Shown here: positions 25,925 through 34,336 of the stretch, piece after piece
Position numbering within the stretch: the stretch's first letter is position 1
Layout: each line of letters begins with the position of its first letter
Origin: Serratia marcescens subsp. marcescens ATCC 13880
GTDB lineage: Bacteria; Pseudomonadota; Gammaproteobacteria; Enterobacterales; Enterobacteriaceae
Assembly: GCF_017299535.1 (NCBI RefSeq)
Contig: NZ_CP071238.1
Span: 434,001-498,000, forward strand
Length of the DNA stretch: 64,000 nt
Reading direction: 5' to 3'
Notes under the pieces: model-generated
The model's input: the letters and a program-made list of their open reading frames with translations, nothing else
Databases searched by the model: none
What the model was told of the DNA's origin: nothing
Translations under genes and position numbers: made by a program

Positions 25925-26156
25925 GACATCGTCCATCAGAGAGTGGATCGCTTAAAGGGCGATTGCAGGAGTCTGCATACTAAAAGGCCGAAAAAAAGAT
26001 GCTTTTTAGTGTTAAAAGCATAATCCAATTTATAGTTATAAAAGAGGAGATATGTGCTTGTGATATCCTCATGAGTGCAATGGTGTTTTTTGGAGCAATT
26101 TGAGACATGGAAATGATGATCCCCGCCCGCCGCTTACCGTTCCGGGAGCTGACATA

Positions 26157-27128
26157 ATGAAAAAAAAGACGCTGTTTACCCTGTTGCTGATGTTGGCGGC
26201 GATCGCATTGGCGATCCTGTTCCGCGCGCACAATCAGGATCTGTTACTGCAGGGTGAAGTGGATGCCCCCGAAGTGATCGTCGCATCCAAGGCGAAAGGC
26301 CGAGTCGTTGAACGCCTGATCGAACGCGGCGACGACGTGAAAAGCGGCCAACTGATCATCCAACTCGACAGCCCCGAACTGATGGCGCAGCTGCGTTCCG
26401 CGCAGGCGACGCGCGACGAGGCCAAAGCGCAGCTCGAGCTGTCGCTGCACGGCACCCGTGAAGAGAGCATCCGCAACCTGCGCGCCAACCTGGCGCAGGC
26501 CGAGGCGCAGTACCGCAATGCGCAAAACGACTACAACCGTAACCTGAGCGTGGCCGGCAAGGGCTATATCTCGAAGTCCGAGCTGGACGCTTCGCGCCGG
26601 TCGCGCGACACCGCCTTCCAGCAGGTGCAGGCCGCCAAGGCCAACCTGGATGAAGGCATCAACGGCGACCGCGTCGAGCAGCGGCAGCAATATGCGGCGG
26701 CGCTGCGGGCGGCGGAAGAGAACCTGCTGCAGATCCAGGCGCAGAGCGACGATCTGCAGGTGAAAGCGCCGGTGGACGGTGAAGTGGGGCCGATCCCGGC
26801 CGAAGTGGGCGAATTGCTGAACGCCGGCAGCCCGCTGGTGACGTTGATCCGGGTGCCGGACGCCTACTTCGTGTTTAACCTGCGTGAAGACATCCTGGCC
26901 CACGTGCGCAAAGGCGACAAGGTCAAGCTGCGGGTGCCGGCGCTGAAGGACAAAATGATCGACACCGAGGTGCGCTACATCGCGCCGCTGGGGGATTACG
27001 CCACCAAACGCGCCACCCGCGCCACCGGCGACTTCGACCTGAAAACCTTCGAAGTGCGCCTGTATCCGTCACAGCCGGTGGACGGCCTGCGTCCGGGGAT
27101 GAGCACCTTATGGCAATGGAAAGAGTAA
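26157..27128 (+). CDS. HlyD-family periplasmic adaptor protein
   Basis: This 323-residue protein has an N-terminal membrane anchor (residues about 4-22), a biotinyl-lipoyl half-motif (ASKAKGRVVERLIERGDDVKSGQ), a long coiled-coil hairpin rich in Ala/Gln/Arg (about 75-190), and the second lipoyl half and beta-barrel. It is the membrane-fusion subunit of an export pump resembling YhiI/YbhG. The next two genes encode ABC-2 permeases, the first overlapping its end by 19 bp. No ATPase is encoded nearby. Substrate unknown; drug or lipid-like export is the usual role. Confidence 0.85.
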   Translation: MKKKTLFTLLLMLAAIALAILFRAHNQDLLLQGEVDAPEVIVASKAKGRVVERLIERGDDVKSGQLIIQLDSPELMAQLRSAQATRDEAKAQLELSLHGTREESIRNLRANLAQAEAQYRNAQNDYNRNLSVAGKGYISKSELDASRRSRDTAFQQVQAAKANLDEGINGDRVEQRQQYAAALRAAEENLLQIQAQSDDLQVKAPVDGEVGPIPAEVGELLNAGSPLVTLIRVPDAYFVFNLREDILAHVRKGDKVKLRVPALKDKMIDTEVRYIAPLGDYATKRATRATGDFDLKTFEVRLYPSQPVDGLRPGMSTLWQWKE

Positions 27129-28264
27129 GGGCCGGCTGGCGCTGCTTCAGTCACGCGTTCGACAAAGAGTGTCGCGTCGCCTTTCGCAGCCCGGTGGTGC
27201 ACTGGCTGAGCTGGATCTTTCCGCTGATCCTGTTTGCGCTGATCAGCAGCAACTTCTCCGAAGGCACGCTGCTCGATCTGCCGGTCTCGGTGGTGGACAG
27301 CGATCACAGCCCGCTGTCCAAATCGCTGACGCGCCGGCTGGACGCCGGTTCGCACGCCCACGTCGAGGCTTACAGCGGCGGGCTGCCGGAGTCACTGAGC
27401 CGCCTGCGCAGCGCGCAGGATTACGCGCTGCTGTATATCCCGCCGGATCTTGAGGCCAACGCGCTATCGGGCAAACAGCCGAGCGTGGTGATGTACTACA
27501 ATGCGTTGTTCTACGGCGCCGGGCTGTACTCCACTCAGGACTTCGGCGGCCTGATGAACGAAATCAACGCCAGCACCCGCAGCATCATCGCCACCGAGAT
27601 GGGTAAAACCCTGCCGCCGTTGGCGGACGTGACGCTCTCCTACGGCAGCCTGTTCAACGCCAGCGGCAGCTATATCTATTACCAGCAGTTCGCCGCCACC
27701 ATCCACCTGCTGCAGCTGTTCGCGGTGACCTGCATGATCTATGTGCTGGCGCGCAGCAAGTCGCTGCTGCAGGCCAAGCCGTTCAGCCTGGCGCTGCTCG
27801 GCAAGCTGGCGCCGTACACGCTGTGTTTCACCACCCTGCTGATGGTCGAGATCGCGGCGCTGGTAGGCATCTTTGACGCCCGCGTCAGCGGCAACCCGCT
27901 GTTTATGCTGATGATTGGCCTGTTCTACGTGATGGCGGCGCAGAGTATCGGCCTGCTGCTGTACACCTTTACCGGCAGCACCATCACCGCCTACAGCCTG
28001 ATCGGTATTTTGGTCAGTATCGCGATGACCTTCTCCGGAATGGCGGTGCCTGAGCTGTCGATGCCGCTGCCGGCGCGCATCATTTCCAACATCGAACCGC
28101 TGACCCACGCGCTGTACGCGATGTTCGACGTGTTCCTGCGGCAGGTGCACGCCAGCGCCATCTTCAGCGTGTGCGCGCTGCTGGCGGTCTATCCGCTGGT
28201 GGCCGCGCTGCTGGTGCGCAATCGCCTGCCGGCGCGGCTGGCAAAAGAGGGGAACGCCGGATGA
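27110..28264 (+). CDS. ABC-2 type transporter permease (first of two)
   Basis: This 384-residue protein has one N-terminal membrane helix, a large periplasmic domain (DLPVSVVDSDHSPLSKSLTRRLDA...) and five or six C-terminal helices, the YhhJ/DrrB-like half-permease layout. The gene begins inside the end of the adaptor gene and overlaps the next permease by 4 bp, so the three are one operon. It should dimerise with the second permease, but the required ATPase must come from another locus. Confidence 0.85.
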   Translation: MAMERVRAGWRCFSHAFDKECRVAFRSPVVHWLSWIFPLILFALISSNFSEGTLLDLPVSVVDSDHSPLSKSLTRRLDAGSHAHVEAYSGGLPESLSRLRSAQDYALLYIPPDLEANALSGKQPSVVMYYNALFYGAGLYSTQDFGGLMNEINASTRSIIATEMGKTLPPLADVTLSYGSLFNASGSYIYYQQFAATIHLLQLFAVTCMIYVLARSKSLLQAKPFSLALLGKLAPYTLCFTTLLMVEIAALVGIFDARVSGNPLFMLMIGLFYVMAAQSIGLLLYTFTGSTITAYSLIGILVSIAMTFSGMAVPELSMPLPARIISNIEPLTHALYAMFDVFLRQVHASAIFSVCALLAVYPLVAALLVRNRLPARLAKEGNAG

Positions 28265-29400
28265 AGCTCTATTGGCAAACCTTCGTTAAGGTGCTGCTCG
28301 GCATGCTGGAGCGGCCGGTGTGGCTGATGCTGATCCTGTCGCTGTGCATCATGAGCCTGGTGTACGCCAACCGCACGGTGTGGGATCTGCCGGTGGGGGT
28401 GGTCGATCAGGATCACAGCACCGCCAGCCGCCAGCTGATCCGCCAACTGGACGCCACCTCCAAGATCGCGATTGAAACCTACGACAGCCTGGAACAGGCG
28501 CAGCGCGATCTCAGCTGGCGCAAGCTGTTTGCGGTGATCATCATGCCGGTGGATCTGGAGAAGAAAATTCTCAGCGGGCAAAACATCGTGGTACCGGTCT
28601 ACGGCGACGCCACCAACCGCCTGGCCAACGGCCAGATCCAACAAGACGTGGTGGCGGCCTACCAGCAGCTGCTGACGGAGTACAACAACGGGCTGCTGCT
28701 GCGCAGCGGCTTCAGCGAACGGCAGGCGCAGATACTGCTGACGCCGATACTGGGGCAAACGCTGGACGTGTTCAACCCCGGCATCAGCTTCGCGGCGATC
28801 ATCTTCCCCGGCCTGCTGGTGATGCTGTTGCAGCACTCGCTGCTGATCGCCTGTATCCGCGTCAATATCGCCATGAAGAGCATGCCCGGCGGCAAGGCGC
28901 CCCTGGCGGCGCACCTCGGCGGGCTGACGGCGCTGCTGCCGATCTGGCTGTTCCTGTCGATCGTGCTGTTTGTGCTGTGGCCGTGGGTATTGGGCTATCG
29001 GCAGACGGCGAACATCGCCGAACTGCTGCTGCTGACCTTCCCGTTCCTGCTGGCGGTATTGGGGCTGGGCAAGCTGGTGACCGAGTGCCTGCGCAGCGTT
29101 GAGATGATCTACCTGACGCTGGCGTTCATCACGACGCCGGTATTCTACCTGTCCGGCACCATCTGGCCGCTGCAGTCGATGCCGGCCTGGGTGCGCGCCA
29201 TCTCGTACAGCATTCCCTCCACCTGGGGCACCAAGGCGATCGCCGGCGTCAACCAGATGGGGCTGTCGCTGAATGAAGTGTGGGGCGATGTGATGATGAT
29301 GCTGGTGCTCGGCGTGGTCTACACCCTGCTGGGCTTCGGCGTCGGTTTCTTGCGCAACAGCGTGGCGCTGCGCGGGATGTTCAGGAAGCGGCGGGCGTAG
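28261..29400 (+). CDS. ABC-2 type transporter permease (second of two)
   Basis: This 379-residue protein is a paralogue of the preceding permease: an N-terminal helix, then DLPVGVVDQDHSTASRQLIRQLDATS, a periplasmic domain, and a C-terminal helix bundle containing FYLSGTIWPLQSMP, typical of ABC-2 permeases. Start ATG 28261 overlaps the previous stop (ATGA). A strong terminator follows, closing the three-gene operon. Confidence 0.87.
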   Translation: MKLYWQTFVKVLLGMLERPVWLMLILSLCIMSLVYANRTVWDLPVGVVDQDHSTASRQLIRQLDATSKIAIETYDSLEQAQRDLSWRKLFAVIIMPVDLEKKILSGQNIVVPVYGDATNRLANGQIQQDVVAAYQQLLTEYNNGLLLRSGFSERQAQILLTPILGQTLDVFNPGISFAAIIFPGLLVMLLQHSLLIACIRVNIAMKSMPGGKAPLAAHLGGLTALLPIWLFLSIVLFVLWPWVLGYRQTANIAELLLLTFPFLLAVLGLGKLVTECLRSVEMIYLTLAFITTPVFYLSGTIWPLQSMPAWVRAISYSIPSTWGTKAIAGVNQMGLSLNEVWGDVMMMLVLGVVYTLLGFGVGFLRNSVALRGMFRKRRA

Positions 29401-29407
29401 GAGATAA

Positions 29408-29440
29408 ATAAAGGCGCCATTTTCGGCGCCTTTATTATTT
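29408..29440 (+). terminator. Terminator of the adaptor-permease operon
   Basis: AAAGGCGCC-ATTTTC-GGCGCCTTT (29411-29434) is followed by ATTATTT. It marks a clear end before the AT-rich pocket holding the microcin-like gene, so that gene is not simply the tail of the pump operon. Confidence 0.88.
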
Positions 29441-29604
29441 CGTATTATTGATATGGTTAAGGTGATTTATTTAGTGGGATGTTCACTCTTATTTTAATTT
29501 GATTTCTTATTTTGACTTTGGTAATTGTAATTGTCGACCTGCTTAGGGAATTAATGGTTGACGTTAATTTTATCTATAACGTGTTATTTAAAGGATGGAA
29601 TAAT

Positions 29605-29928
29605 ATGTTAACAATAAGAATGCTTACATTTGACGAGATGAAACTGATTGGCGGTTGTGGCGATGGAAATAACGGCGGCGATCGTGATAGGCCAAGCAGA
29701 GGTGCGCCAAACTCTTGTGCCAATCAGGTTGGAATGGGCATTATCATTGGCGCATTTACCGGTTTTTCCGGCGGCCCGCCTGGGATGGTCGGCATGGCCG
29801 TTGCCGGTGGCTTAATGGGGGCGGTCTCTTGCGCAGATAACAGCCCAGCCGGGAATAATAAGAATAACGGTGGTGCTTTGGGCGGGAATAAAAACGCCAA
29901 TAGCGTTAATGGGCAATGTCGCTGGTGA
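29605..29928 (+). CDS. Putative class II microcin precursor (double-glycine leader)
   Basis: The predicted precursor is 107 residues. Its N terminus, RMLTFDEMKLIGG, fits the colicin V-type leader (R-x-L-T-x-x-E-[LM]-x-x-[VI]-x-GG) cut after Gly17 by a peptidase-containing ABC exporter. The predicted mature part of 90 residues has a Gly/Asn-rich start, a hydrophobic Gly-rich helix (about 41-75: VGMGIIIGAFTGF, GMVGMAVAGGLMGAV) and a Gly/Asn-rich tail ending QCRW, with cysteines at 18, 38, 76 and 105. AAGGAT sits 8 bases before the ATG; Met6 is an alternative start. The composition is more AT-rich than the flanks. No known microcin was recognised by name; function is inferred from architecture and the adjacent small membrane protein. 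Confidence 0.75.
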   Translation: MLTIRMLTFDEMKLIGGCGDGNNGGDRDRPSRGAPNSCANQVGMGIIIGAFTGFSGGPPGMVGMAVAGGLMGAVSCADNSPAGNNKNNGGALGGNKNANSVNGQCRW

Positions 29929-29970
29929 TGAGTCAATCGCTTTTAGAGTGTCAAAAATAGAGGGTGGGTT

Positions 29971-30198
29971 ATGGTTAACAGGCGTCTTTTAAACCCGCTT
30001 TGTAATATGATGGCGCTAACGTTGAGTATGTTACTTATCTCGTTCTCCTCATTGAGTATTATTTCATACGGAGAACATTTGGTAGATGCGGCCATCGCGG
30101 TTTTCACGTATTTTGGTATCAGAAGCTGCTGCCTGATGTGTGTAAGTTTATTCCATTGGTTCCACGGTAGAAATGATCGCATTAATCTTGATAAATAA
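29971..30198 (+). CDS. Small two-helix membrane protein, candidate microcin immunity protein
   Basis: This 75-residue protein has two predicted membrane segments (about residues 12-33 and 39-63) and a polar tail HGRNDRINLDK. AGAGGGTGGG precedes the ATG. It begins 42 bp after the microcin-like gene in the same direction. Size and topology resemble the small membrane immunity proteins that protect producers of class II microcins. Sequence alone does not identify it, so the role is inferred from position and topology. Confidence 0.55.
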   Translation: MVNRRLLNPLCNMMALTLSMLLISFSSLSIISYGEHLVDAAIAVFTYFGIRSCCLMCVSLFHWFHGRNDRINLDK

Positions 30199-30230
30199 AC
30201 AGTGCCGGCAGCGTCCGCCGCCGGCACTGT
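30186..30230 (-). terminator. Terminator of ubiUV (leftward), also hairpin after the immunity candidate
   Basis: A perfect 11-bp stem, ACAGTGCCGGC (30199-30209) with GCCGGCACTGT (30220-30230), is followed on the minus strand by TTATTTATC, fitting a terminator for ubiV. Rightward transcripts from the microcin pair would meet the same hairpin but without a T run. Confidence 0.75.
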
Positions 30231-30235
30231 CCTCG

Positions 30236-31114
30236 CTAAGACACCAACTCCAGTCCCGCCACGCGGCGCCAGTAACCGTTGCAGTCGGCGTGGTCGGTCA
30301 AAGTCAGCGGCTGCTCGCCATACTCGTTGGCGCGGAAGGCGTCGATTTGCGCCAGCGTCTCGGCGCCCTGCGGCGATAGCCGCACGATGTCCACCAGCCC
30401 TTGCATGCTCGGCAGCTCGTTGCCAAGGTTGTAGCAGTAGCCGCTCATGGTCTGGATGCCGTTGAGCACGAACACCTGCTGTTGCTCCTGCGAACGCATC
30501 ATGCGGCCCTGCGGATATTTGATGCAGCAGGTTTCGCACTCGTCCTTGCCGCGGTTTTCCGAGCGGGCGGTGAAGCAGCGCGCCGAATAGGCCAGCGGCA
30601 GGTGGCCGTAACTCAGCACCTCCACTTCGAAGTCGTGGCGGAAGCCCAGTTCGTCGCACTGCGTCAGCAGGTTGGCCAGCCAGTCGCGCGACAGCTCGAC
30701 CGGCATGCACCAGCGCATCATGCCCTGGCGGCGCAGCAGGCGCAGGGTATAGGCGTTGTAGCAGTTCAGCGCATGGCCGGCGACGAACGGCAGACCGCGC
30801 TCCGCCGCCATGTTGACCGCGCCCAGGTCGTTGGCTTCAAACAGAAACTCGCCGTTCTCCACATAGCGTTTCAGCTCATTCAGTTCGGACGGCGCCTGCA
30901 GCAGCGCCAACGTGGAGATCACGACCTGCTTGCCGCTGCGGGCGATTTCACGCGCCAGCGCCAGCCAGTCGCCGACCTTCATCTCGCGCCGCTTGGTGCA
31001 GACGCTCTCGCCGAGGTAAATGATGTCGGCGCTGCTCTCCGCCGCCTGTTGATAGAACGCCGCGATGTCGTTTTTCGGCCAGTAGTAGAGCACCGGCCCC
31101 AGTGCGTATTTCAT
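30236..31114 (-). CDS. ubiV: O2-independent ubiquinone hydroxylation protein UbiV (YhbV)
   Basis: ATG at 31114 gives 292 residues (MKYALGPVLYYWPKNDIAAFY), equal to E. coli UbiV. It is a U32 peptidase-like protein that binds a 4Fe-4S cluster; the cysteines in LGESVCTKR, DECETCCIKYPQG are present. UbiV pairs with UbiU to hydroxylate ubiquinone precursors without oxygen. It lies 11 bp after ubiU, in the same operon. A longer in-frame extension upstream overlaps ubiU and is not real. Confidence 0.96.
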   Translation of the reverse strand: MKYALGPVLYYWPKNDIAAFYQQAAESSADIIYLGESVCTKRREMKVGDWLALAREIARSGKQVVISTLALLQAPSELNELKRYVENGEFLFEANDLGAVNMAAERGLPFVAGHALNCYNAYTLRLLRRQGMMRWCMPVELSRDWLANLLTQCDELGFRHDFEVEVLSYGHLPLAYSARCFTARSENRGKDECETCCIKYPQGRMMRSQEQQQVFVLNGIQTMSGYCYNLGNELPSMQGLVDIVRLSPQGAETLAQIDAFRANEYGEQPLTLTDHADCNGYWRRVAGLELVS

Positions 31115-33817: not shown

Positions 33818-34336
33818 CTATTTTACACCCACGGTAAATTTGTTTTCTTCCCCTTTATGATGCTGAATTGTCCACTCGCCACTGACGCGGAATGAAGCCG
33901 CGGAAGCATAGGTGTCTTCCATAAACTGGAAATAAACGATTTTTCCGTCTTTGACCTGCGCTTTTATTGCGAAAGGAGAGGTGAACTGATGGCCTAACGC
34001 TACTGAGGTATAGGTGAATTGACCAAATACGGCCACGGTGCCTCCGTCGGCAAGAATGTCACCGATCGTGAAGTCGTTTATCTCCCAGTAAGTGCCGACA
34101 TTTGAAAAGGTGTCGATGTAAACCTGTCGCCCTTGAGAAGTGCCCGCCCAGGGCTCGATCTGTTTGAGCTCTTTGTTTTCAAAGTTCAGGGAAGTATAAA
34201 CCGCGTTTTCATCGATAAGACGCATGGCGGCATTGGTGACGTCTTCCTTTGCTGTGTTCATCAAGAATGCATAAACCACATCTTTTGGCAGTTGAGTCTC
34301 TTCTGCTTTCACAATGAGTTTTTCATTGTTTTTCAT
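33818..34336 (-). CDS. SnoaL-like / NTF2-fold protein of unknown function
   Basis: This 172-residue protein has the cone-like NTF2/SnoaL pattern: an early helix (AFLMNTAKEDVTNAAMRLIDENAVYTS), a middle helix and paired strands (GGTVAVFGQFTYTS, PFAIKAQVKDGKIVYFQFMEDTY). The family includes small-molecule isomerases and hydrolases and many proteins without a known role. The stretch is less GC-rich than the neighbouring core genes and stands alone between yhbQ and potE, suggesting accessory origin. No signal peptide. Specific function unknown. Confidence 0.7.
   Translation of the reverse strand: MKNNEKLIVKAEETQLPKDVVYAFLMNTAKEDVTNAAMRLIDENAVYTSLNFENKELKQIEPWAGTSQGRQVYIDTFSNVGTYWEINDFTIGDILADGGTVAVFGQFTYTSVALGHQFTSPFAIKAQVKDGKIVYFQFMEDTYASAASFRVSGEWTIQHHKGEENKFTVGVK

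Follow-up and report, generated by a model that had tools for sequence, protein, structure and literature searches.

A candidate class II microcin and immunity cassette in an AT-richer islet of Serratia marcescens ATCC 13880

The precursor gene, its partner and their islet

The window, by which we mean the whole 64,000-nucleotide stretch of DNA that was analysed, carries two small plus-strand genes in an AT-richer islet. The upstream neighbour of the islet is an ABC-2 permease gene (Pfam), and the downstream neighbour is a gene which we take to be ubiV. The features of the locus are listed below in window positions.

29401..30235, no strand: AT-richer islet, about 0.8 kb long and flanked by the permease gene and ubiV (GC content, gap comparison)
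29407..29436, plus: terminator-like stem-loop of 12 pairs, 3' of the upstream permease operon
29590..29595, plus: ribosome binding site AAAGGA, 9 bases before the ATG; AAAGG is invariant in a 5-sequence alignment
29605..29928, plus: class II microcin precursor gene, 107 amino acids and a stop codon (open reading frame, homologues, dN/dS)
29605..29658, plus: exporter leader, residues 1-18, predicted cut after C18 (leader matrix; exporter consensus in the available text of PMC6959990 and PMC10885120)
29655, plus: alternative cut after G17 (literal Gly-Gly)
29716..29832, plus: core C38-C76, Gly-rich and hydrophobic, with a cysteine at each end (structure model, cysteine counts)
29872..29925, plus: tail, residues 90-107 (GALGGNKNANSVNGQCRW), conserved C-terminal module, putatively receptor-binding (relatives' sequences)
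29971..30198, plus: 75-amino-acid protein with two hydrophobic segments, probable cognate immunity protein (tblastn, hydropathy; no Pfam match)

The initial annotation had described the open reading frame, its 107-residue product, the leader and four cysteines (residues 18, 38, 76 and 105), and all of these were found as stated, as was a ribosome binding site ahead of the gene. An in-frame TTG lies upstream at 29512; because similarity between clades falls upstream of the ATG (by inspection), 29605 is likely to be the start codon rather than this TTG. A strong terminator had also been claimed after the preceding operon. Its 12-pair stem is present, but the terminator scan returned 2 sites compared with 1.2 (sd 1.1) in shuffled sequences, a count no higher than chance, so that the call rests on the length of the stem. 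The promoter scan gave one minus-strand site compared with 1.8 (sd 1.5) in shuffles, and no RNA family reached its gathering score within 29300-30400. The dN/dS ratios of the precursor gene were 0.05, 0.13, 0.11 and 0.14 in the four usable pairs out of five (the fifth had no usable dS, and dS was near 2, that is saturated, in one of the four), and by this measure the gene is under purifying selection.

The AT-richer pocket was borne out, with a GC content of 0.446-0.486 compared with 0.61-0.67 in most of the flanking windows. We compared the site among relatives and found ubiV in 27 of the 28 searched. The precursor together with the membrane ORF occupied the ubiV site in 4 of these 27 (G016, G018, G002 and G019). 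The gap, measured from the last sense codon of the permease gene to that of ubiV, was 47 bp in four others (G004, G006, G012 and G014) and 841 bp in the window, while G001 carried a membrane-protein-like ORF alone (37% identity, L087 1213-1425) and the remaining 18 had other neighbours or spacing. Since occupancy of the site varies in this way, we regard the pair as a small islet that is present in some strains and absent from others. No copy of the precursor or of the islet was found in the plasmid collection. A second AT-richer pocket of the window (GC about 0.42-0.47) holds a SnoaL-like gene at 33818-34336 on the minus strand.

The ORF at 29971-30198 was absent from the initial annotation. 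With its 75-residue product as tblastn query, we located relatives directly 3' of the precursor in L039-L044, L049 and L050, L039 and L040 representing the same loci as L043 and L044; in L061 a relative adjoins a precursor that is broken. All five loci with the pair at the ubiV site (the window and L041-L044) have such a related ORF behind the precursor. Behind precursors of another core type (L052, L053, L056; L054, L055) the small membrane ORF is a different one, and behind those of a third core type (L060, L063, L064, L065) it is different again, both groupings being made by reading. Because the type of membrane ORF goes with the type of core, as immunity proteins do, 29971-30198 is a probable immunity gene. 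Its dN/dS ratios, 0.17-0.33 in five pairs, indicate purifying selection on this gene also; among the pairs of both genes, some dS values are saturated near 2. The ORF beside the broken microcin (L061 6448-6678, genome G029) is intact, and it is possible that in G029, as in G001 (L087), immunity was retained after the weapon was lost.

Family, core and C-terminal tail

The database search returned 34 relatives of the window protein at E<=0.01, and a profile search returned 86 proteins at E<=1e-3 among the 7994 candidates scored; where names were given, they were mainly Serratia, and also Rahnella and Pantoea. Of the 60 genomes searched, counting the own genome, 19 had matches at E<=0.1 and 13 at E<=1e-4, these 13 all belonging to the own genus. 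Matches above E 1e-4 were left out of the family, and G024 was scored as lacking it despite a tail-like end in L062, in a reading frame that is cut off by the end of the contig. Two loci, in Serratia inhibens and S. plymuthica, were found by scanning named genome contigs, and the plasmid collection gave no match to the window protein. Neither this protein nor the 75-residue one reached a Pfam or NCBIfam cut-off. Pfam Bacteriocin_IIc matched 10 of 23 aligned members at E<=1 (best 3e-5), the window's own protein not being among them. The solved structures held no credible match (best E 0.33).

By reading, 10 of the 34 database relatives shift to another frame before the tail (six of the 34 that were not read in this way align over their full length), which suggests that the gene has been lost in some strains or misassembled. 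The leader is kept in 34 of 34; the initial annotation had named homologues without it as evidence against a microcin. Its class II microcin reading was upheld, as the leader is kept in homologues and C39-peptidase exporters co-occur with the family, some of them close by, and 29605-29928 is best read, with good support, as a class II microcin precursor. The tail GALGGNKNANSVNGQCRW carries no C-terminal Gly/Ser siderophore motif, as expected of class IIa, in which cysteines are permitted. A siderophore-type class IIb microcin was ruled out by inspection, the Gly/Ser-rich end being absent.

Two helices, at residues 38-52 and 59-75, were predicted in the core by a low-confidence model (mean pLDDT 47.7). 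To the pairing of the cysteines we applied a count over 66 distinct precursors picked for a terminal NGQC, with Cys18 assigned to the leader. Between leader and tail, 44 precursors had two cysteines, 16 none, 5 one and 1 three; the single tail cysteine in 66 of 66 arises by construction, because the selection required terminal NGQC. Since the cysteines are thus mostly paired (zero or two in 60 of 66), the family pattern favours a Cys38-Cys76 disulfide and disfavours the 18/38 and 76/105 bridges suggested at first. Two disulfides had moreover been called unusual. In the accessible part of a review, a table gives "4 (2)" for microcin L and "4 (1)" for microcin PDI, which we take as cysteines (disulfides), so that four cysteines are not unusual in class IIa.

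The tail NSVNGQC[RH]W is common to very different cores. In 13 hand-picked relatives, the last 18 residues were 0.67-0.94 identical to those of the window, and the body between leader and tail was 0.17-0.64 identical. Identity at third codon positions over the last 12 codons was only 0.17-0.67 in 15 of 17 loci (the two closest excluded), suggesting that the tail is kept by protein-level selection rather than by recent exchange. The tail DNA pattern occurred in 1 of 247 genomes of the order, namely the own genome; as this draw held no other members of the genus, the result speaks only for rarity of the exact pattern outside the genus. NSVNGQC appeared in no main text of the literature searched. 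According to the available text, microcins V and L are alike solely in their C-terminal 32 residues and share Cir as receptor (PMC10233263, and PMC12511343 for microcin V). By analogy, we propose that the tail is the receptor-binding part, and because it is carried by very different cores it may be read as a common entry module.

Leader, cut site and exporters

The exporter consensus in the available text of PMC6959990 is L(-12)xxxE(-8)L(-7)xxxxG(-2)G(-1), and L7, E11, M12, G17 and C18 of the precursor fit it. In this register L7 is -12, E11 is -8, M12 is -7, I15 is -4 and G17-C18 is -2/-1; both the register and the hydrophobic positions agree with an exporter leader of the type claimed initially. 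The matrix used to score leaders was built on 46 unique leaders, all from outside the window's clade. The results showed that the precursor start ranks 1st of the 21,054 start-codon-by-cut combinations in the window, with 19.9 bits compared with 12.8 for the next. The best-register pair at -2/-1 is Gly-Cys, and the literal Gly-Gly lies one residue earlier. LIGGC is common to 28 of the 34 database relatives and to 13 of the 66 tail-bearing precursors.

The initial annotation had placed the cut after Gly17. Judged by the leader register, cleavage after Cys18 is far better supported (+19.9 compared with -28.1, the latter placing the Glu at -7), and five clade mates scored with the same matrix showed the same pattern. 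A cut after Gly17, which would give an N-terminal cysteine, four cysteines and possibly two disulfides, concerns the cut site only, and we hold it to be plausible without preferring it. The literal Gly-Gly does end at residue 17, and a side chain at -1 is disfavoured because the cleft of PCAT1 at the cut is very narrow (PMC6959990, available text). Apart from the register, LIGGC is absent from 53 of the 66 tail-bearing relatives, and the 0 or 2 cysteines between leader and tail in 60 of 66, counted with Cys18 in the leader, also speak against it. The site may therefore be either Gly-Cys or a shifted Gly-Gly, and by its sequence cleavage after Cys18, at a Gly-Cys site, is most likely. A second cut resembling that of McpM was considered as well: a GAP stands immediately ahead of the core in 25 of 34 class-1 cores; hhalign aligned the GAP of the window with NAP of the microcin PDI precursor McpM, and not with the McpM cut site Gly35/Ala36.

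The own genome encodes four C39-peptidase ABC exporters, one of them on the 43-kb contig C2, and each adjoins an adaptor gene. None of the four lies near the window gene, which is hence an orphan precursor, and the window contains no C39 domain. In other genomes the two kinds of gene were found together. Among the loci compared by tblastn, L058 (Serratia) has a family member at a distance of 0.9 kb from both an exporter and an adaptor, and the tail-like end in L062 adjoins an exporter and adaptor. Tail-bearing precursors stand beside an HlyD-type adaptor and a "peptidase domain-containing ABC transporter" on plasmids of Rahnella aquatilis (L094) and Pantoea piersonii (L095). With four exporters in the own genome and precursors near exporters in L058, L094 and L095, the co-occurrence with peptidase-type ABC exporters that the first reading called for was observed. 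Among the 28 relatives, a C39 exporter was found in 12 of 12 with the family (E<=1e-4) and in 12 of 16 without it; the co-occurrence is consistent with the microcin reading but not discriminating.

At 26100-29400 the window carries one HlyD-type adaptor gene with two ABC-2 permease genes behind it (Pfam), and by reading no ATPase gene was noticed in the ORF list beside this operon. We considered the operon as a dedicated exporter and rejected it, because the permease is kept in relatives without a microcin at the site and the window lacks a C39 domain. Short precursor-like ORFs with leaders were picked out by reading near three exporters of the own genome (L035, L037 and L038, one of them on contig C2), and a 1381-residue ORF adjoins those of L035; none was picked out near L036 in the filtered ORF list.

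Relation to known microcins and proposed role

The gene of L093 (plasmid NZ_KM052220) has the length of McpM and McpM residues at the positions given in the available text of PMC5311971, and we infer that it is McpM. The window protein aligned with it in a whole-length BLASTP at E 5e-8 (a single comparison, much of it leader), and hhalign gave a probability of 96.3 over the first 75 columns, so by its sequence the window leader is related to that of McpM. The core profiles matched with a probability of 32.4, which 0 of 200 column shuffles reached. The PDI-core HMM gave the window peptide -0.4 bits, a score that 72 of 500 shuffles attained and that most of five further microcin-like peptides from the own genome equalled or exceeded. 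Certain other members of the family score higher, with P0059 at the top (10.3 bits, E 9.4e-4). The tail profiles gave a probability of 36.0 and a score of 15.62, just above the highest shuffle score of 15.53 (none of 200 shuffles reached it), and the tail sequences clearly differ. Because of the HMM result, we call the window peptide PDI-like in plan and not a proven member, homology of the cores being weakly supported.

In the part of PMC5311971 available, McpM of E. coli shares with the window peptide a leader close to IRELTLDE, a Gly/Asn-rich head, a core between two cysteines (57/90 in McpM, 38/76 here) and a cysteine near the C-terminus. Its first two cysteines, 57 and 90, are required and its last two are not. 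Unlike the window peptide, McpM has a Gly-Gly cut and a second, Gly-Ala cut, and its tail is SSCSGNNVGGTCNR rather than NSVNGQCRW. Microcins V and L share the leader type and plan (PMC12511343 and PMC10233263, available text), and they are a precedent for two microcins alike only at the C-terminus that use one receptor, Cir. The hybrid microcins of Erwinia and Pantoea, in the accessible text of PMC13174018, likewise combine one killing part with varied uptake parts and have a cysteine near the C-terminus; they carry a microcin H47-like N-terminal part, with a PDI-like tail in three, whereas many cores and another tail are found here. Among the closest known systems are also the S. marcescens class II microcins SM001-SM080 (PMC13101503, published 2026), which share the host species group, the leader type, often multiple C39 exporters per genome and nearby small immunity proteins. 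According to the available text, 96% of 1,621 S. marcescens genomes encode class II microcins, with 93 unique sequences (in its supplement), and 17 of 40 tested were active; the text describes no NSVNGQC tail, Gly-Cys cut or cysteine pattern.

We consider it very probable that 29605-29928 and 29971-30198 form a microcin and immunity cassette. From the leader, the family, the conserved membrane-protein partner, the presence of exporters, the islet and the selection on the gene, all read from DNA, we infer a course of export, cleavage, disulfide formation, entry, killing and protection. The precursor would enter one of the four C39-peptidase ABC exporters, whose genes lie elsewhere in the genome, and its leader would be removed, most likely after Cys18, to give an 89-residue peptide that would exit through exporter, adaptor and TolC. 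A Cys38-Cys76 bond would close the hydrophobic two-helix core. The conserved tail would bind an outer-membrane receptor for entry into a related cell, where the core would damage or block something in the inner membrane, while the small downstream membrane protein would protect the producer. The product is thus most likely a secreted small protein for killing competing relatives.

The same leader and exporter route could carry a signalling or other non-killing peptide, since double-glycine leaders are also found on signalling peptides such as ComC (PMC10885120, available text). We think this improbable, as a small membrane ORF that matches the core type follows the precursor, the length, the Gly-rich core and the variability of cores fit bacteriocins, and Bacteriocin_IIc matches are found in 10 of 23 relatives. 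Alternatively, the gene could be in decay or have ceased to be exported, being retained chiefly for the sake of the immunity partner. This would agree with the orphan position, with the 10 of 34 relatives out of frame, with the broken microcin beside an intact immunity-like ORF in L061 and with the immunity-like ORF that stands by itself at the ubiV site in L087. The copy in the window is intact, however, and its dN/dS of 0.05-0.14 in four usable pairs of five argues against decay, which seems to us about as remote as a signalling role. As a weapon and immunity cassette, the pair illustrates how such genes can be located away from their exporter, as small chromosomal islets gained and lost between strains.

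The weapon is of a known kind; what is out of the ordinary is the Gly-Cys register and the tail common to very different cores. Tentatively, and at somewhat less than even odds, we suggest that NSVNGQC[RHK]W is a transferable entry module, directed at one outer-membrane receptor and borne by unrelated cores in Serratia, Rahnella and Pantoea, and that the window's clade is cut at Gly-Cys, outside the Gly-Gly/Gly-Ala rule accepted for class II microcins. Should the tail serve as an entry module, knowing the receptor of a single member would allow the entry of dozens of different microcins to be predicted, and loss of that receptor would exclude all tail-bearing ones. A Gly-Cys cut, if true, would broaden the rule for finding such genes.

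Two observations concern other tails. L060, L063, L064 and L065 have the same head and a different end, of the GNKCGSSSGGKCSW type, which is reminiscent of the microcin PDI tail. P0131, found with the McpM-like query, has a PDI-like leader and head, the NAPTHIY core start and the end NNFAGQCRW, and is a possible bridge between the two tails.
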